22,919 bases of DNA from a virus: IMG/VR virus record IMGVR_UViG_3300031368_000016, positions 1 to 22,919 of that record, one strand, 5' to 3'. Of this stretch, positions 1,974 to 22,919 are shown piece after piece; positions within the stretch are counted from its first letter, which is position 1, and every line of letters begins with the position of its first letter. Made by a program: the position numbers and the translations under genes. The notes beneath the pieces were generated by a model. The model saw nothing but the letters and a program-made list of their open reading frames with translations. It was not told the DNA's origin and made no database searches.

Positions 1974-2306
1974 TTATCCTTCATTTTTGGATGCTTGCCA
2001 GAATCTCCAGCGGTTATCTTTGAATTCAAGCAGTGCAATATCACCGTTTGGATATTCAACCCAAACTTTCTCTTTAGATGCTTTCAGAACTTTCGCCTCA
2101 TTTCCAGCTATACAGGCTAAACAATCTGATTGCTGAATTTTATGAGAGCATGCAGGAACGATCCGCCCAGGACGTACTACCATCTCATTTATAATAACCA
2201 CAACTTCATCGGCACGCCGATCTGAGGCACGCCGATCTGAGGTACGCCAATCTGAGGTACGCCGATCTGAGGTACGCCAATCTGAGGCACGCCGATCTGA
2301 ACTCAT
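1974..2306 (-). CDS. Early protein with N-terminal pentapeptide repeats and a Cys/His cluster
   Basis: 110 residues. The ATG at 2306 overlaps the upstream stop as ATGA, which supports this start even though the first 32 residues are low complexity: repeats of SDRRA, SDRRT and SDWRT encoded by a 15-bp tandem repeat. The remaining part has CSHK...CLAC (C-x-H-x6-C-x2-C), a possible small zinc site, then a beta-rich C-terminus (VWVEYPNGDIALLEFKDNRW). I know no family with this arrangement. The alternative is a start at the internal Met in INEMVVRPG, which would leave the repeat untranslated; the ATGA coupling argues against that. The basic and acidic repeat could make a flexible arm. Confidence 0.65.
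   Translation of the reverse strand: MSSDRRASDWRTSDRRTSDWRTSDRRASDRRADEVVVIINEMVVRPGRIVPACSHKIQQSDCLACIAGNEAKVLKASKEKVWVEYPNGDIALLEFKDNRWRFWQASKNEG
2206..2300. repeat. 15-bp tandem repeat (coding, pentapeptide unit)
   Basis: Five complete units of TCTGAGGYACGCCRA run from 2221 to 2295, flanked by a degenerate unit at 2206-2220 and a partial one at 2296-2300. The variable bases alternate C/T and G/A. Because 15 is a multiple of three, changes in copy number keep the frame of the minus-strand gene and would add or remove SD[RW]R[AT] units at its N-terminus. Confidence 0.9.
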
Positions 2307-2581
2307 GATTGCTGCCGGATTGTTATACCTGGATGCAGATTATCCGGATCAAAAGGTTTGAACCTGTTCGAATCCAATTTAATTTGTCGCGTGAGTTCCT
2401 CACGCTCACCCCGCGCAAGGCGCTTACATTCTGATTTTGAGATTGGTTCACTAATCTCATCAGGTAAACGATATTTTAACAGACCGCCGACTAAAAGCTT
2501 ATATCCGCTTCGACCATCCTGATAGGTGATATGGTATGTCCACTCACCATCAGGCTTTTGGAAAACTTCAGTATTCAGCAT
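2303..2581 (-). CDS. Hypothetical early protein, 92 residues
   Basis: No family recognised. AGGAG lies 8 bases before the ATG, and the stop overlaps the next start as ATGA. The N-terminal half looks like a short beta-hairpin protein (EVFQKPDGEWTYHITYQDGR, then GYKLLVGGLLKYRLPDEI), and the C-terminal half is a charged helix (KSECKRLARGEREELTRQI) ending in a proline-rich tail. Soluble and probably cytoplasmic; it belongs to the early minus-strand operon. Confidence 0.7.
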   Translation of the reverse strand: MLNTEVFQKPDGEWTYHITYQDGRSGYKLLVGGLLKYRLPDEISEPISKSECKRLARGEREELTRQIKLDSNRFKPFDPDNLHPGITIRQQS

Positions 2582-2601
2582 TGTCCGATTCTCCTATTTG
2601 T

Positions 2602-2814
2602 TTAAGGTGTTATTGCCTCTTGTACAACTGATCTGAATACCATCGAAAACGGCATCAGACAGTTGAGAATGTCCAGAATATACTCAGCCCGAAAGTAAAA
2701 CCATTTCTGACCGGTCTTGACCGGTTGACCGCCCGCCTTAATAACCTCGTCCTTCATTTCAACCGGACAGCAGAAAACATCCGGTTTGCTGGTCCCATAA
2801 ATCTCGCGCTTCAC
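2602..2814 (-). CDS. Hypothetical early protein, 70 residues
   Basis: GTG start at 2812-2814 with a GGGGG tract 4 bases upstream. The sequence KPDVFCCPVEMKDEVIKAGGQPVKTGQKWFYF suggests a small alpha/beta protein; no known motif is present. It lies 38 bases after the upstream gene and 20 bases before the next. Because the start is non-ATG and the protein is short, I am moderately sure that it is real. Confidence 0.6.
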   Translation of the reverse strand: MKREIYGTSKPDVFCCPVEMKDEVIKAGGQPVKTGQKWFYFRAEYILDILNCLMPFSMVFRSVVQEAITP

Positions 2815-2848
2815 TTGACCCCCTTGTTTTGTTTACGACCTGATACCT

Positions 2849-2881
2849 TATATCATTGGACTGAGAAAAGGTGCAAACCTT
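2849..2881 (+). repeat. 33-bp perfect inverted repeat, copy 1
   Basis: This stretch is identical to the reverse complement of 3947-3979. It spans the stop codon and the last codons of the early coiled-coil gene. In the other copy the same bases encode YIIGLRKGANL in frame within a membrane protein, so that copy is more likely the source and this one the recipient. Confidence 0.95.
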
Positions 2882-3041
2882 CAATTTTCCTGATGCGTTT
2901 CTCTTGATCTTCAATTATATCGGCAAGGTATTCTATCATACTTTCAATAGATTCGCCATGCTGATATTCACTGGTATCGGAAAGATAATTTAATCCTTTA
3001 TGACAAGATTCCCGAATCCATTTTAATTGTTCTGCTTCCAT
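2853..3041 (-). CDS. Small coiled-coil early protein, first gene of the operon
   Basis: The frame opens at 3083, but the ATG at 3041 is preceded by AGGGAG and is the better start, giving 62 residues. The protein is almost wholly helical and charged, with a heptad-like C-terminal half (MIEYLADIIEDQEKRIRKIEGL). It is the first gene after the promoter at 3096-3125. Its last codons and stop lie inside a 33-bp inverted repeat shared with the 3' end of the gene at 3938-4249, so the ending GLHLFSVQ may have been created by that copy event. Function unknown. Confidence 0.65.
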   Translation of the reverse strand: MEAEQLKWIRESCHKGLNYLSDTSEYQHGESIESMIEYLADIIEDQEKRIRKIEGLHLFSVQ

Positions 3042-3095
3042 TGGAACTCCCTGATGGTGTATACTTTTGTGAACTGTGAACACTTATTACATATC

Positions 3096-3125
3096 AATAT
3101 AATATCGATCACAAGATAATGTCAA
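3096..3125 (-). promoter_or_regulatory. Sigma-70-like promoter for the early minus-strand operon
   Basis: Read on the minus strand, TTGACA occupies 3125-3120 and TATATT 3101-3096 with an 18-base spacer; TTATAT at 3102-3097 gives 17. The start point would be about 3089, some 48 bases before the ATG at 3041. Just inside the transcript is a direct repeat TGTGAAC-TGTGAAC (plus strand 3068-3081), a candidate operator. Confidence 0.75.
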
Positions 3126-3149
3126 GAGATTTTATAACTTTTTTACAAA

Positions 3150-3191
3150 GAAATTAAAATAATCAGGGCAACCAATCTCTCGGTTGCCCTG
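3150..3191 (-). terminator. Rho-independent-like terminator after the lysis genes
   Basis: A perfect 10-bp stem (CAGGGCAACC at 3164-3173 pairing with 3182-3191, 8-base loop) is followed on the minus strand by an AT-rich run, ATTATTTTAATTTC. It stands about 150 bases downstream of the endolysin stop and just before the early promoter, which is where a late-transcript terminator would be expected. The U run is interrupted, so efficiency may be moderate. The rest of the interval 3192-3347 shows no gene. Confidence 0.65.
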
Positions 3192-3347
3192 AAACGGGAG
3201 TGACAATGCCTTCGCATCTGTGATTAAGGCTATGCCCTCAACCACACCCGTCGAATTTAGCGCATAAACCGCCCTTCCTGACGATTCTAAGCCCTATCCT
3301 ATGTCCCGATATACCCTTACGTCAATAACCCCTTTAATTTATAATAC

Positions 3348-3902
3348 TTACGTAAAAGTCAGTCTTTTAGAAAGCCCTGTACGGCGATTATCGCTGGAAA
3401 CCCCTTGCTGTATTGACTTCGCAACCTGCTTCCTGAATACATCCATGTCGATATTCGGACAAGTCTTCGACCACAAGCCTTTCTGCAAGAGTTCATAGTG
3501 CCCTCTAATACATTCCACACCGGTCAATAGTGGAAAGTCCGGACTCTTGAAATATATTTCAGCAATCCGTACAAACGCATCGAACTGCTTCCGTGTGAAC
3601 TGTCGGCGCCCGATCATGCAAGTTCCAATGGACTCATGATTATGTCCTTTGCAGTGCGCACCCTGATACAATAGATCGCGACCACTGAAGCTCGCTCCAT
3701 CGAAATGGAAATCGGGTCGCTTATTTATCCATGCTTCATAGTCCCGGTAGCCGTTTGTGATAACATGGTGATAGCCGATGGTATCATAATTCCGGTCCGG
3801 GGCGGTATGCCACTCGGTTATCAATTTGACATTCCCATAGTAGGACGCCGAACAATGCAGGATCAGGTAACGAACATTTTGAAAATTTAGTGGAAGCATC
3901 AT
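3348..3902 (-). CDS. Endolysin, N-acetylmuramoyl-L-alanine amidase (Amidase_2 type)
   Basis: 184 residues. This family cleaves the amide bond between N-acetylmuramic acid and L-alanine in peptidoglycan, using a zinc ion. Visible hallmarks are LILHCSAS with ligand H16, IGYHHVI at 42-48, GAHCKGHNHESIGTCMIG at 81-98 (the family's GaH..N..siGi.liG block), H135 in GHYEL, and C148 in KTCPNID. The single catalytic domain fills the protein. There is no wall-binding domain and no signal peptide, so export would depend on a holin, for which the two upstream membrane proteins are candidates. AAGGTGGT precedes the ATG. This is the best-defined lysis gene here. Confidence 0.95.
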   Translation of the reverse strand: MMLPLNFQNVRYLILHCSASYYGNVKLITEWHTAPDRNYDTIGYHHVITNGYRDYEAWINKRPDFHFDGASFSGRDLLYQGAHCKGHNHESIGTCMIGRRQFTRKQFDAFVRIAEIYFKSPDFPLLTGVECIRGHYELLQKGLWSKTCPNIDMDVFRKQVAKSIQQGVSSDNRRTGLSKRLTFT

Positions 3903-3937
3903 ACCACCTTAATTTCTTATTTACCTCATTCAGAATT

Positions 3938-4249
3938 TTAGTCGTCAAGGTTTGCACCTTTTCTCAGTCCAATGATATAGTGATGCAGATGAATAAGGAT
4001 TTCATCTTCACCTGCTTCCCAAATACCTTTTCCCAGCGCTTTGCACATATACTTTGAACCGGCTTCACCATGCTTGACACCAAGTGCTTCAGCCGCAGGT
4101 CTGGTGCGTTTCCCCTTCGCCAATTTGATGATTTCCTTCACTATTCCAATTATAGTGACGGGTCCAATCTTCTTGCCTCCGAAGATGCCAATGAGAATAC
4201 CAAAGGCACCAGAAATAACTGGCAGGAAATCTCCGAGAAAATCAAACAT
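3938..4249 (-). CDS. Lysis-cassette membrane protein, possible holin
   Basis: 103 residues with AGGAG 7 bases before the ATG. The first 23 residues form a glycine-rich hydrophobic segment (FLPVISGAFGILIGIFGG), followed by another moderately hydrophobic stretch (GPVTIIGIVKEIIKL) and a basic, soluble C-terminal domain (KGKRTRPAAEALGVKHGEAG). It sits between the XhlA-like protein and the amidase, so a holin or a regulator of lysis is plausible, but I recognise no family. The 3' end contains one copy of the 33-bp inverted repeat. Confidence 0.7.
   Translation of the reverse strand: MFDFLGDFLPVISGAFGILIGIFGGKKIGPVTIIGIVKEIIKLAKGKRTRPAAEALGVKHGEAGSKYMCKALGKGIWEAGEDEILIHLHHYIIGLRKGANLDD
3947..3979 (-). 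repeat. 33-bp perfect inverted repeat, copy 2
   Basis: Reverse complement of 2849-2881 with no mismatch over 33 bases. It lies within the 3' part of the 103-residue membrane protein gene, read there as YIIGLRKGANL. The two copies bracket the endolysin gene and the early promoter, about 1.07 kb apart. Confidence 0.95.
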
Positions 4250-4250
4250 T

Positions 4251-4508
4251 TTAAACTCCTGTTAATAGTTTTACTCCAAGCAGAATGAGTGCAACCGTGA
4301 GTGACAATCCCCAACCCACTATAGCCCACATTCCTTTTGTCATACCGTTACGAAACGATGTATTTTCCTGAACGTCCGTTACAAGATTGTTCTTATAATC
4401 ACCGTTGCCGAAGAGAGCCGTGTGCATATCGTCAACCTTTAAGATAATGTTATCGAGCTTGTTCTCCAGTGCAACCATCTCCACCCGGCATTCTGTTTGA
4501 TCGGTCAT
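4251..4508 (-). CDS. XhlA-like coiled-coil membrane protein (putative holin accessory)
   Basis: 85 residues. The first 55 form a charged helix with coiled-coil character (RVEMVALENKLDNIILKVDDMHTAL), followed by one transmembrane segment at about 62-82 (MWAIVGWGLSLTVALILLGV) and a short tail. This layout matches XhlA-type phage proteins, small membrane-anchored coiled coils next to holin and endolysin genes. Ribosome site AAGGGA is 8 bases before the ATG. The gap to the next gene is a single base. Assignment rests on architecture and context, not on a catalytic motif. Confidence 0.7.
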   Translation of the reverse strand: MTDQTECRVEMVALENKLDNIILKVDDMHTALFGNGDYKNNLVTDVQENTSFRNGMTKGMWAIVGWGLSLTVALILLGVKLLTGV

Positions 4509-4513
4509 TGTGT

Positions 4514-4675
4514 TTATCCCTTTCTCCCAGTACCTTTGCCTTTACCGCCGCCAGAACCGTGACCGGGTCCACCTTTAGTGCAACCGCCTTTATTCTGATT
4601 TAGGCGGTTACCACCCGCAGCCAACAGCCTGAATACCGGCTTATCCGATCCCCAAAGCGTATATCCTGTTATCAT
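4514..4675 (-). CDS. Glycine-rich small ORF, 53 residues
   Basis: An ATG at 4673-4675 opens a 53-residue frame ending at TAA 4514-4516, five bases before the XhlA-like gene. It begins MITGYTLWGSDKPVFRLLAAGG and ends in a Gly/Lys-rich tail (GGPGHGSGGGKGKGTGRKG). The ribosome site is weak (only AAAG). Without it, the stretch 4509-4677 would be a long gap in a packed operon, which is the main argument for a gene. No homologue recognised; the basic tail could bind nucleic acid, but this is speculation. Confidence 0.45.
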   Translation of the reverse strand: MITGYTLWGSDKPVFRLLAAGGNRLNQNKGGCTKGGPGHGSGGGKGKGTGRKG

Positions 4676-4791
4676 CTTTGGTTTTCTTTAATTATTTTCA
4701 ATTTTACTGCATTTTTATTGAAAAACACTTGCGTATTACTTGCATATATATTACATTTACCCTTGAAATCAATCACGAAAGGAATTTAATA

Positions 4792-5067
4792 ATGCGTTTA
4801 TCCCCTTGGAAACACCCCGAAACCGGCAAAATAAGAATATACATTAACGACTTTGACACCGCCGGTCTGAAAATCTGGATTGCAAAGTCCGATAATTTCG
4901 AAGATCGCGACTGGGACTTCTACCATTCTGGCTATCCAGAATTTATCCATTCATTGAATCATCCGGAAATGACATCCTGGGACGGAGTTGCCGAAGATGT
5001 CGTTAAAGAATTCAAACTCGAAGGTAAATCCTTCGATGATATAATCAAATTAGCAAAAGGAGCTTAA
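4792..5067 (+). CDS. Plus-strand accessory gene 1, hypothetical 91-residue protein
   Basis: One of only three convincing plus-strand genes in the window. The ATG at 4792 is preceded by AAGGAA; the open frame extends further upstream but without a ribosome site. The protein opens with RLSPWKHPETGKIRIYINDFD and is aromatic and acidic in the middle (DNFEDRDWDFYHSGYPEF), with a helical C-terminus (VAEDVVKEFKLEGKSFDDIIKLAKG). No family recognised. AT-rich upstream DNA with TTGAAA at 4718 and TATATT at 4747 could be a weak promoter, although the spacing is not ideal. It forms a pair with the HTH gene one base downstream, so a toxin-antitoxin, immunity or regulatory role is possible. Confidence 0.7.
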   Translation: MRLSPWKHPETGKIRIYINDFDTAGLKIWIAKSDNFEDRDWDFYHSGYPEFIHSLNHPEMTSWDGVAEDVVKEFKLEGKSFDDIIKLAKGA

Positions 5068-5068
5068 A

Positions 5069-5467
5069 GTGAAAGCTCACCTCAAAAAACGTGGTTCACA
5101 AATCGTCAGAATCACTCACAATGGCGCTGAACAACATCTAATTAAACCTTCCACTCGTGATATTGCCCGCGAAATTTGCGCAAAATTCAACGCGTTGCCG
5201 CCACAAGAACGCTATAATATCAAGGATGGGATTGAAAGGTTAAAACAAATTCGCGACGAAGTTGAAGCCAATCCGTCACCTTGGATCTCAAAAATCCAGT
5301 CGATTTCAAAGAGACTGGCGCTAAGTCTTGGAATCCCAAAATGCTCTCCAGACCTGCTTGCCAAGCATTTCGGAGTCGATCAAAGTACAATATGGCGCTG
5401 GCTCGAAGGTCAAACGCCTACCATTAACCACCAGCTTCTCATTGTCGAAATAGATAAAAAATTATAA
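5069..5467 (+). CDS. Plus-strand accessory gene 2, HTH protein
   Basis: 132 residues from a GTG at 5069, with AAAGGAG about 6 bases upstream and one base after the stop of gene 1. The C-terminal part has a clear helix-turn-helix: LLAKHFGVDQSTIWRWLEGQ at about residues 96-115, followed by TPTINHQ. The N-terminal third is beta-rich (RGSQIVRITHNGAEQHL), and the middle is a long charged helix with KDGIERLKQIRDEVEANP. Opposite orientation to the phage operons and its own start region mark it as a moron-like cassette. It could repress its own pair or phage genes; the target is unknown. Confidence 0.7.
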   Translation: MKAHLKKRGSQIVRITHNGAEQHLIKPSTRDIAREICAKFNALPPQERYNIKDGIERLKQIRDEVEANPSPWISKIQSISKRLALSLGIPKCSPDLLAKHFGVDQSTIWRWLEGQTPTINHQLLIVEIDKKL

Positions 5468-5475
5468 CCTGAAAA

Positions 5476-5805
5476 CTACTTGAATCCCCTCAAGATTACC
5501 TTTATACTAAGACCTACAGTGTTACTGAAAATATCAGTAGTATCCCAACCTCTTGGATCAAAAAGACTATGTTCTTTGAACACTTCATCAGCAACTTCCC
5601 AGAGAATCCCGAGAGCAAAAGTAATTCCGATTGACCAAAAGAAAGGAACTCCAAACTGTTCCCAAACATCAGCAAGCATATAACTGCCGCTCATGTGTAA
5701 TAATGAATACTGATCGAACTGGTTAAATAGTCTATCACAATGTCCAATGCTACTTGTAATAAGGAGAAGAAAGATAATAAGAAGACATTTTGTCAAGAAA
5801 CTCAT
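5476..5805 (-). CDS. Small membrane protein, YfiM/DUF2279-like
   Basis: Starting at the ATG at 5805 gives 109 residues with a hydrophobic N-terminal signal or anchor (FLTKCLLIIFLLLITSSIG) at the very start; the open frame begins at 5850 but would put a charged stretch before it. After it come HMSGSYMLADVWEQFG, a second hydrophobic segment (FFWSIGITFALGILWEV) and DEVFKEHSLFDPRGWDTTDIFSNTVG. The spaced H...E...D...D..N..G pattern resembles YfiM/DUF2279-type envelope proteins, whose activity is not established. It ends convergently with the plus-strand cassette 9 bases away. Likely envelope located; a lysis or exclusion role is only a guess. Confidence 0.6.
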   Translation of the reverse strand: MSFLTKCLLIIFLLLITSSIGHCDRLFNQFDQYSLLHMSGSYMLADVWEQFGVPFFWSIGITFALGILWEVADEVFKEHSLFDPRGWDTTDIFSNTVGLSIKVILRGFK

Positions 5806-5818
5806 GGAACCATACGTC

Positions 5819-5929
5819 CTATCTCTTCCTCGATGCAGCATTAGCACCAAGAGTAAACCACATTATTGTGAAGGTCAGTAGGATACTCAAAAGTGCTGTT
5901 ACGAAAATTTTCAGTATCCCGTTTTTCAT
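5819..5929 (-). CDS. Single-pass membrane micro-protein, 36 residues
   Basis: An ATG at 5927-5929 opens 36 codons ending at TAG 5819-5821. The sequence is MKNGILKIFVTALLSILLTF followed by TIMWFTLGANAASRKR: a basic N-terminus, one transmembrane helix and a basic tail. The start overlaps the stop of the preceding micro-gene as ATGA, and the next gene starts 13 bases downstream, the same coupling used elsewhere in this genome. A holin-like or other small membrane function is possible. Too short for confident calling. Confidence 0.5.
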   Translation of the reverse strand: MKNGILKIFVTALLSILLTFTIMWFTLGANAASRKR

Positions 5930-20977: not shown

Positions 20978-22919
20978 TTATACAACCGGAAGTAAAACAC
21001 ACCGGCAATTGCTTGACAATAGCCCATTGGCAGTGTATATTGTAGATAAAGTTTGGAGATCATAAACATGACCATTAAATTTACGAACACTCACGTCGAC
21101 AACATCTGCCAACGTTATCTCGCTGGCGAATCGGAACTGGCACTCTCGAAGGCTTTCGGTGTTGATCGCGGAGTTATTCGCCGAATCCTTACTGAAGAGC
21201 GAATCACTCCCAGAACCGGAAGCCAAGCTAATATCATCAGGATGCAACGACTCACGCCCGCTGAACGCTCTACTCTCACTGCGGCTGCCCATGATGCTGT
21301 CCGCGGCGTTACTCAAAGTGAAGAGCATCGATGTAAAATCGCGGCAACCATTGAAACCAATCCTGTCAATATCAGCCCGATTGAAATTCGCCTCTGTAAT
21401 GCTCTCAAGCGGCGTGGGATTAACTTTACCCATCAAAAAGCCATCGGGCGCTACAATATCGATGTCTCCATTAACGAATCGCGCATCGCCGTGGAGATAT
21501 TCGGCGGACATTGGCACGCGTCTGGTAGACACGCCAGGCGTTTCCGTAAACGCATTAATTACATCCTTGATCACGGTTGGATACCCGTTATTATTTGGGT
21601 TACCCCCGACTATCCGCTTGGACGTGGCGCTATCAAGTATCTGATCACCCTTATGCAAATGCTTCGCGGCGATAAATCCATTCAACGTCAAGAACATGTG
21701 ATTAGGGGAGACGGTAAGCCGTCTGCCATCGGCAATACCAATATCAACTACAATGCCGTTATAGGTGGCGATAAATGCGGCAAACTGATCAGGGGCAAAG
21801 ATGGGCGTTTCACCCACTAAGCAGTTCGGGTGAAGTGGTGGTGCCTGTATCGCTTCGTAATTGAAAACCATCGGCTTTATCGGCGGATCCTCCGGGTCCT
21901 CCGGGTCCTTAGGAAGCGGTGTCAACGAATCACCCTGCTCATAAAAATTCGCGCCTATATCTGCCGTTTTACCTTGCATTGCAACACAATAATCGCAAGC
22001 ATCACTTGCTATCTGCCACTCTTTCTCTTTGACGCCCGCCATCCGCCATATCTCTTCAGCTCCCCGATTGCCAGCCCGGATCGTTTCAGTCCGTGCAACC
22101 ATCAATGCGCGCTTCGATGTCCAATTTTTGAATTGATCGGTAAACGCATCGACCATTTCAGTATAACTCAATCCTTCGGTTTGCGCCCGAAGTATGATTG
22201 CTTGTACATCCTGAATCGAAGTGTGTGATATTCCCTCAGCAAACTTGAAACCATAGTCCTTAATGAATGCCTGTACAGCCTCGTTGCCCAATTCAAACGT
22301 AACACCAATCAGGGCTGCCTCAGCGATACCAATATCAATCAAAATTATCATTAATATCTCGGCGCCATCCTCGCCAATCCGCTTTGTCCAAAGCTCCTTT
22401 AAGTCGAAAAGCTCTTGTTGAAGCAGATCCTTTGTCGTTATACCCTTCGGTGCATATTTCCGGATAACCTTCATTACTTCCTTTGCTTCCAGTTGAAATT
22501 CCTTAACAGCCCAAGTCTTGATCTTTGGAATATAAGCCTCTGCCCGCGCCCGGCGACCGATGGCGCTCCGAAGTAATCCCGCGCCGGATTCTCCAGGTGT
22601 TGCTTTGATTAAAGAGACTCCCTTAGCACGAGCAGTGACAATCGGCGTCGCCTCCGTCCCCGTTATCGCAAGTCCACGAAGGAACTCGTCGCCGTTCTGT
22701 ACCTGTGGTAACCCTACTTCAACACGCGCCTCATTGACCGTCATCCAACCACCGACGACACCTTCTTTCGCATTGTTCCACTTTTTCTGTCGAATATCAG
22801 CCAGTGCAGTTACTCGCGATATGTCAAACCGACAGGTAACACCTCCGCCGAAGTCCGATACAAGCCCCCGATTAATGCTGTCGTCAACCCGATTCTGGAG
22901 CGGTTGAATCGTATCCTGA
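20978..22919 (-). CDS. Portal protein fused to MuF head-morphogenesis domain, interrupted by an intein (partial)
   Basis: The frame is open to the right edge, so the N-terminal portal part is missing; numbering here is from the internal Met at 22744. The portal C-terminus shows WMTVNEARVEVGLPQV, the usual T.NE.R..lGLp motif. A helical linker follows, then a MuF domain from about 170: ALMVARTETIRAGN, SDACDYCVAMQGK and the closing PPLHPN...CRCVLLPV. Portals form the DNA-packaging ring, and MuF proteins act in head assembly. The conserved HPNCRC is split after N307 by a 272-residue intein (308-579); C580 is the +1 residue. A 9-bp repeat encodes PEDPEDP before the intein. Fusion of both domains is seen directly. 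Confidence 0.93.
   Translation of the reverse strand, partial: QDTIQPLQNRVDDSINRGLVSDFGGGVTCRFDISRVTALADIRQKKWNNAKEGVVGGWMTVNEARVEVGLPQVQNGDEFLRGLAITGTEATPIVTARAKGVSLIKATPGESGAGLLRSAIGRRARAEAYIPKIKTWAVKEFQLEAKEVMKVIRKYAPKGITTKDLLQQELFDLKELWTKRIGEDGAEILMIILIDIGIAEAALIGVTFELGNEAVQAFIKDYGFKFAEGISHTSIQDVQAIILRAQTEGLSYTEMVDAFTDQFKNWTSKRALMVARTETIRAGNRGAEEIWRMAGVKEKEWQIASDACDYCVAMQGKTADIGANFYEQGDSLTPLPKDPEDPEDPPIKPMVFNYEAIQAPPLHPNCLVGETPIFAPDQFAAFIATYNGIVVDIGIADGRRLTVSPNHMFLTLNGFIAAKHLHKGDQILDSATSKRIVGGNPNNNGYPTVIKDVINAFTETPGVSTRRVPMSAEYLHGDARFVNGDIDIVAPDGFLMGKVNPTPLESITEANFNRADIDRIGFNGCRDFTSMLFTLSNAADSIMGSRSESRAFSGRESLHPDDISLASGSGSDSLFSKDSANNSAINTESLRECQFRFASEITLADVVDVSVRKFNGHVYDLQTLSTIYTANGLLSSNCRCVLLPVV
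21013..21041 (+). promoter_or_regulatory. Near-consensus promoter for the nested endonuclease
   Basis: TTGACA at 21013-21018, a 17-base spacer, and TATATT at 21036-21041. The start would be about 21048, leaving a leader of some 20 bases before ATG 21068. The promoter lies on the antisense strand of the codons for the intein's final residues, starting 5 bp inside its edge. Confidence 0.85.
21055..21058 (+). promoter_or_regulatory. Ribosome binding site GGAG deciding the endonuclease start
   Basis: GGAG stands 9 bases before ATG 21068. It lies inside the longer open frame that starts at TTG 21053, so the ATG, not the TTG, is the probable start. Confidence 0.75.
21068..21820 (+). CDS. Antisense homing endonuclease inside the intein (Vsr/EDxHD-like)
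   Basis: 250 residues from ATG 21068, GGAG 9 bases before it; TTG 21053 has no ribosome site. The N-terminus has a helix-turn-helix (ELALSKAFGVDRGVIRRIL, about 23-41), fitting target binding. The nuclease core is at 103-180: SPIEIRLCNALKRRGI with E106, QKAIGRYNIDV with D132, IAVEIFGGHWH with E143, H148 and H150, then RFRKRINYILDHGWIPVII. This is the Vsr/DUF559 fold, to which EDxHD homing endonucleases belong. The last 50 residues lie opposite intein blocks A and B and have no clear fold. The gene stops 3 bp inside the intein. Expected role: cut intein-free MuF genes at HPN/CRC and drive copying of the intein. Confidence 0.9.
   Translation: MTIKFTNTHVDNICQRYLAGESELALSKAFGVDRGVIRRILTEERITPRTGSQANIIRMQRLTPAERSTLTAAAHDAVRGVTQSEEHRCKIAATIETNPVNISPIEIRLCNALKRRGINFTHQKAIGRYNIDVSINESRIAVEIFGGHWHASGRHARRFRKRINYILDHGWIPVIIWVTPDYPLGRGAIKYLITLMQMLRGDKSIQRQEHVIRGDGKPSAIGNTNINYNAVIGGDKCGKLIRGKDGRFTH

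Follow-up and report, generated by a model that had tools for sequence, protein, structure and literature searches.

In the textbook view, a homing intein has its nuclease translated as part of the host protein. The known EDxHD/Vsr-like homing endonucleases are encoded in introns or by free-standing genes, some of these next to split inteins, and we know of none that is encoded antisense to a coding frame. An antisense endonuclease gene has been described in the nuclear group I intron L2066 of Didymium squamulosum, where it is expressed from the antisense strand and its product cuts the empty site (PMC9548176). In the collaborative homing of cyanophages, the free-standing endonuclease F-CphI adjoins an intron-containing psbA gene (PMC6083498). 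An intein in the capsid morphogenesis protein of Jerseyvirus and Kagunavirus (UPWr_S phages) has been reported as an intein only (PMC8425127). In the literature that we searched, which covers subscription journals poorly, antisense endonucleases turned up only in group I introns and not in any intein; such absence is no proof. The locus described here combines an intein on one strand with a predicted nuclease gene on the other.

The window, i.e. the whole stretch of DNA analysed, has 22,919 nt and corresponds to positions 1 to 22,919 of the IMG/VR virus record IMGVR_UViG_3300031368_000016; relative loci carry L-numbers, and the features are listed in Table 1. On the minus strand, a stop-free intein of 816 bp (272 codons) was recognized from the ORF and its translation, with the junctions HPN/CLVGETP...LLSSN/CRC. 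It matched PF14890 (Intein_splicing) with an E value of 4e-8 and 33.6 bits, slightly below the cut-off of 35.8, and the host protein matched Phage_Mu_F (E 1.5e-5). The host ORF also matched the portal-protein PHROG phrog_2662 at positions 394-701, the C-terminal part of the portal family, runs open at the window edge (20978-22919, minus strand) and reaches 964 aa in the near-identical contig L002; therefore, judging from these matches, the host gene probably encodes a portal-MuF fusion that is truncated where the window ends. The claim of the initial annotation that an intein splits HPN/CRC of the MuF domain was thus borne out by ORFs, translations and Pfam, with this correction to the host. 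In relatives, the splicing residues were kept almost without exception (C1 in 152/154, terminal Asn in 154/154, +1 Cys in 115/115), while the penultimate residue of the window intein is Ser and not His, which counts against its being a homing intein. Elsewhere in the window, an ORF contains six copies of a 15-bp tandem repeat (2211-2300) that encodes a peptide repeat (S-D-R/W-R-A/T).

Table 1. Features of the window and of selected relative loci (coordinates of relatives refer to their own loci).
Feature	Position	Strand	Remarks
Host gene, MuF/head-morphogenesis protein	20978..22744	-	588 codons inside window; ORFs, translation, Pfam, PHROG
N-extein of host gene	21824-22744	-	
C-extein of host gene	20981-21007	-	CRCVLLPVV, then stop
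Intein, 272 aa	21008..21823	-	C1, T39-x-x-H42, block F GHVYDLQ, terminal N272, +1 Cys
Antisense nuclease gene, 250 aa	21068..21820	+	helix-turn-helix N-terminal half and Vsr/EDxHD-type catalytic domain (YNIDVSI...IAVEIFGGHWH)
Sigma-70-type promoter, TTGACA-17-TATATT	21013..21041	+	inside last codons of intein; 11/12 consensus matches
Shine-Dalgarno GGAG	21055..21058	+	antisense to intein block-F codons L256-Q257
Doubly conserved patch	21482..21502	.	nuclease residues 139-145 (catalytic strand) opposite intein motif 108-114
Intein linker, residues about 132-242	21098..21430	-	mostly predicted disordered; reverse complement of nuclease helix-turn-helix half
P1068 (L171), free-standing nuclease and intein-free MuF	2282-3217 and 3211-3987	+ and -	convergent
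Second L004 intein, 389 aa	4895-6061	-	site DDDAL/CDYC
Antisense nuclease in second L004 intein	4988-5857	+	zinc-finger-like repeats and DUF559, register 0
L218, free-standing zinc-finger-DUF559 nuclease and intein-free MuF	2905-3729 and 3715-4761	+ and -	convergent

The nuclease ORF lies wholly within the intein DNA, running from ATG at 21068 through 250 codons to TAA at 21818-21820. Upstream, the -35 (TTGACA, 21013-21018) and -10 (TATATT, 21036-21041) elements are separated by a 17-bp spacer, and 5 bases on the promoter side and 3 on the stop side remain to spare inside the intein edges. The frames keep exact codon register: reverse-complementing any nuclease codon yields an intein codon. 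The product matched PF18741 (REase_MTES_1575, E 5e-7), Vsr (0.007) and a phage homing-endonuclease PHROG; PF18741 was found in 35 of 40 members of the nuclease family, which also matched DUF559 and Vsr families. Although a phmmer search of the single sequence against the PDB returned nothing useful, the family profile matched 3hrl, 3r3p and 1cw0, so that Vsr and I-Bth0305I were reached only by profile and fold search. The initial annotation had placed the promoter, GGAG, ATG, 250-codon nuclease and stop all inside the intein, and every coordinate proved right; its reading of the gene as complete, EDxHD-type, antisense and equipped with its own promoter and ribosome-binding site held in the window and in relatives alike.

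Scanning IMG/VR with the nuclease gave 52 loci of 100 to 31% identity, all of which had intein blocks opposite, at the same MuF site and in the same register. An alignment-based IMG/VR scan gave 490 relatives, 80 of which were kept, and GTDB genomes gave 26; the set of 162 loci comprises the IMG/VR scans, GTDB genomes, five phage records and one plasmid. A search for opposite-strand nucleases in other MuF inteins had been proposed as a check, and the layout recurred in 162/162 loci, always in codon register 0, with nuclease identity down to about 25-31%. Complete N- and C-blocks lay in one host ORF in 156 of these loci, 5 were cut by contig ends and one (L033) was broken; with the host ORF continuous in 156/162, the element does not qualify as a split intein or fractured gene. 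Hosts in ten divergent loci were head-morphogenesis/MuF proteins or matched only the intein-bearing head-protein family, that of L155 being MuF-like by its insertion motif only. A search from the intein side (with the L151 intein) found an antisense nuclease match in 35/35 loci, although some of the search patterns lay in nuclease-shared DNA. Among cultured phages, 124 records have the element, including Salmonella Jerseyvirus, E. coli Snoke, Gordonia Vivi2 and Malisha, P. aeruginosa phages, Mycobacterium Sejanus, Aaphi23 and REQ3. The dual-strand layout is old, diverse and widespread (hundreds of phages), and the nuclease is almost never annotated in cultured-phage records, most of which annotate the head protein alone. 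PV360690, LC507823 and PV446483 are among the few with one or two hypothetical proteins beneath the nuclease match besides the head protein; those of PV360690 are antisense to the head protein and cover the unrecognized nuclease.

In this register, TTA, CTA and TCA codons of one frame are stops in the other. Over 115 distinct inteins, these codons were absent from the 3,706 Leu/Ser codons of the nuclease frame (about 680 expected) and from the 4,808 of the intein frame (about 880 expected), the expectations being derived from extein codon use of the same genes. The zero counts are partly owed to the requirement for intact frames, yet only 1/162 loci had been set aside as broken. Given the nuclease residues and host codon use, the chance that the intein frame stays open in one locus is about 10^-2.2, and the window alone is therefore weak evidence; the log probabilities over the 115 inteins sum to -343, but are not independent by descent.

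Codon-position rates divide the element into parts. In 25 independent pairs, the nuclease third/first position change ratio was 1.15-2.45 across 21098-21637, where the nuclease dominates, and 0.5-1.1 in 21008-21097 and 21638-21823, where the intein dominates or both do. Recent divergence within Guernseyvirinae followed the same course in the middle region (25, 7 and 49 changes at codon positions 1, 2 and 3). In the doubly conserved patch, nuclease third-position entropy was only 0.2-0.5 bit at residues 139-142, compared with mostly 1.5-2.0 elsewhere; third positions at the catalytic strand IAVE are nearly fixed because a conserved intein motif is encoded opposite (EYLHGDA in the window, ED-FHGDG in relatives), a linker motif with no function assigned. 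These rates, together with stop avoidance and the signal codons described below, meet what is demanded of an antisense overlap, namely selection on both frames in the same DNA, and the alignments demonstrate purifying selection on both, with the codon register the same throughout.

The expression signals were evaluated in the same way. In intein block F (HVYDLQ), Leu256 was CTC in 66/83 loci (17.9 expected), which gives the GAG of the Shine-Dalgarno sequence, and His252 was CAT in 60/72 (34.4 expected), which gives the nuclease ATG; control sites had no such bias towards CTC/CAT, except for a weaker preference at Leu56. Of 103 loci, 42 have at least 10/12 consensus bases at the fixed promoter position and 21 have a perfect TTGACA-17-TATAAT (12/12), compared with 1.6 and 0.02, respectively, expected from synonymous recoding of the same intein peptide in these loci. 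As judged by these codon counts, the codon choice of the intein is bent to spell promoter, Shine-Dalgarno and ATG. A recognizable sigma-70 promoter was absent from this place in more than half of the 103 loci, and expression may therefore differ between hosts.

The predicted structures agree with two proteins of different fold. The nuclease model (pLDDT 86) is confident at residues 1-220 and disordered at 222-250, and its nearest solved folds are Vsr (1cw0) and the homing endonuclease I-Bth0305I (3r3p). In the intein model, the Hint parts (1-70 and 236-272) have a pLDDT of about 90, a small subdomain (83-130) is fair, and 131-235 is mostly disordered without confident structure. A search of this model against the PDB found RecA, VMA and DnaB inteins with a probability of up to 1.00, as required of a Hint fold. 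There is no in-frame sense endonuclease domain between blocks B and F: the sense linker is mostly disordered in the model and the nuclease is on the other strand. Predicted order faces disorder at both ends, nuclease tail against Hint N-part and intein linker against helix-turn-helix half, while about 100 codons are predicted to encode ordered structure on both strands.

Mobility is apparent from insertion polymorphism. The Jersey MuF gene matched 406 phage records, 58 of which cover at least 80% of it (intein present); many of the remaining matches listed have both exteins with exactly 816 bp missing. Empty sites (HPN/CRS) were checked in three phages, 5sent1, Ent3 and HBW_1 (1044 vs 1860 nt), so that Salmonella Jerseyviruses are polymorphic for precisely 816 bp at MuF HPN/C. 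Between Jersey and Snoke, which belong to different genera, the intein is 95.7% identical, the N-extein 67.5% and the C-extein 82%; the values between Jersey and LSPA1 are 96.6, 68.3 and 91.4%, respectively. Since the intein stayed near-identical while the N-exteins diverged, the unit has, on the evidence of these identities, recently been transferred horizontally between phage genera to an allelic site. Presence or absence at one conserved site and horizontal mobility, both demanded of a homing intein, are thereby met. Identity of the sequences flanking the Jerseyvirus site, however, did not form a clear co-conversion gradient, which counts against the homing reading.

Decayed copies also exist. 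In L151 (2938-3519) and L184 (2501-3049) the N-terminal half of the nuclease is deleted in frame with the intein intact, and the EIFGGHWH motif is partly lost in Jersey/Snoke, Vivi2, Klebsiella RCIP0061 and Sedona; therefore not every copy need be active. The initial annotation would have taken a broken nuclease frame with a retained intein as refutation; such copies were indeed seen (the two deletions and the altered active-site motifs), but they do not refute the homing reading, as the homing cycle predicts such decay. The inteins of L151 and L184, of 194 and 183 aa, are natural steps towards a mini-intein. Early-ending tblastn matches (residue 144-183) were rejected as broken nucleases; the fetched frames were open and the ends were due to divergence.

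In Acinetobacter phages P1068, BUCT629 and IME285, a related nuclease is a free-standing gene, and in P1068 and BUCT629 (L224) it converges with an intein-free MuF gene, the 3' ends overlapping by 7 bp. The free-standing gene has 13 stop-making codons among 41 Leu/Ser and its antisense frame is full of stops, indicating that the stop constraint no longer applies without the intein. Phylogenetically, the gene falls within the embedded nucleases, in a group of seven with 0.98 support. In contig L004, a single MuF gene is interrupted by two inteins, of which the second also has an antisense nuclease, whose DUF559 match (2.6e-13) is above the Pfam cut-off; the free-standing nuclease of L218 is a 50% relative. 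Relatives of this zinc-finger-DUF559 nuclease were mostly free-standing or unrelated zinc-finger proteins, leaving a single embedded case, which suggests, as far as one example can, that the architecture is recurrent. Since both nuclease types occur embedded in a MuF intein and free-standing, convergent with an intein-free MuF gene, they would pass between the two states. A broader proposal goes further: antisense-nuclease inteins recur, both the HTH-EDxHD and zinc-finger-DUF559 types pass between embedded and free-standing states, the MuF overlap protects the nuclease from loss, and the stretch of about 100 codons is a living case of the sense/antisense coding proposed for ancient proteins. 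We advance it tentatively, giving it slightly less than an even chance.

We consider it very likely that the element is a homing intein whose endonuclease is encoded antisense rather than as an in-frame domain, with splicing, cleavage and transcription inferred. That the plus-strand ORF is merely a shadow of the intein, the sole real gene, has in its favour that the codon-on-codon antisense register is the easiest for chance long ORFs and that most annotators of cultured phages called the head protein alone. However, the plus-strand product matches PF18741, DUF559 and Vsr and its model folds like Vsr and I-Bth0305I, the codons for promoter, Shine-Dalgarno and ATG are under selection, and a free-standing homologue exists; the position test refutes it, as the synonymous freedom in 21098-21637 belongs to the nuclease frame and not to the intein frame. 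It was rejected on these grounds as hardly conceivable. The converse, an intein frame that is dead or merely kept open, with MuF disrupted or the nuclease gene left in a decayed insert, could appeal to linker residues 131-235, mostly without confident predicted structure, but the invariant +1 Cys (115/115) and terminal Asn (154/154), Hint blocks conserved at intein codon positions and the single broken host ORF among 162 loci, when about 680 intein-frame stops were expected from the nuclease Leu/Ser codons, led us to reject this as highly improbable.

Harder to dismiss, though still unlikely, is that both genes are real and homing is not the main role of the nuclease, which might interfere with competing phages or act elsewhere in the genome. 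Vsr-type folds include repair enzymes, free-standing relatives exist, and homing endonucleases can serve competition between phages, as phage intron endonucleases do. Nevertheless, every embedded case of the HTH-EDxHD family is inside an intein at one MuF site, the precise presence/absence polymorphism and cross-genus transfer fit homing, and the same cleavage would bring about interference as a side effect.

For an antisense-encoded homing intein we propose the following cycle. The late structural gene on the minus strand is, as its sequence shows, read through the intein, in which all splicing residues are kept, while the internal promoter would let host RNA polymerase express the nuclease, probably at an early stage and without dependence on late transcription. 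The initial annotation suggested that nuclease synthesis could be timed apart from the late message and that antisense transcription could dampen one or the other gene; both ideas are inferences only. When phages co-infect, the nuclease would cut those MuF alleles that have no intein, at or close to HPN/C, repair would then copy intein and nuclease together, the insertion would destroy the cleavage site, and splicing would restore MuF. We further propose that overlap with an indispensable capsid gene may make the nuclease hard to lose, because MuF would not survive a frameshift or a random deletion; the in-frame deletions and missense changes seen to date are compatible with this. The anatomy, the selection acting on the two frames as well as on the expression signals, the polymorphism and the transfer are demonstrated at the level of DNA, from which the cycle is inferred.

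Promoter, ribosome-binding site and nuclease on the complementary strand of a splicing domain mean that two proteins of different fold and expression share nearly all of their DNA, so that dual-strand coding can be studied in an evolved system. More than 100 GenBank phage records contain one gene missed by gene finders, and the overlap with an essential frame possibly explains how a selfish nuclease avoids decay. As the element is present in cultured phages of E. coli, Salmonella, Gordonia and Mycobacterium, it is directly testable.

Compared with known systems, the element is like the LAGLIDADG/HNH homing inteins (VMA, RecA) in its Hint fold, conserved site, nuclease gene inside the intein and mobility as a unit; however, the nuclease of those inteins is encoded in sense, as an in-frame domain of the intein's own polypeptide, whereas that of the MuF intein is a separate opposite-strand protein with its own promoter and ribosome-binding site. 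The nuclease of the element belongs to the same sequence family as the EDxHD/Vsr-like I-Bth0305I (PDB 3r3p) and has the same catalytic fold, preceded by a helix-turn-helix part for DNA binding. The Snoke annotation and the UPWr_S intein are members of the present family in which the antisense nuclease went unrecognized. Collaborative homing of F-CphI and psbA resembles the Acinetobacter P1068 state, P1068 being without the intein, whereas the nuclease of the MuF element is inside the element. An antisense endonuclease within a self-splicing element is common to L2066 and the MuF intein, but L2066 is an RNA intron, whose opposite strand is for that reason not protein-coding, while the MuF element is a protein intein through which the coding frame runs uninterrupted, thus antisense without being a group I case, and both strands code protein over about 85% of it. 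We conclude that these dual-strand-coded inteins work like homing inteins, as far as splicing and cleavage can be inferred, but fail the usual layout, and represent a widespread new variant.
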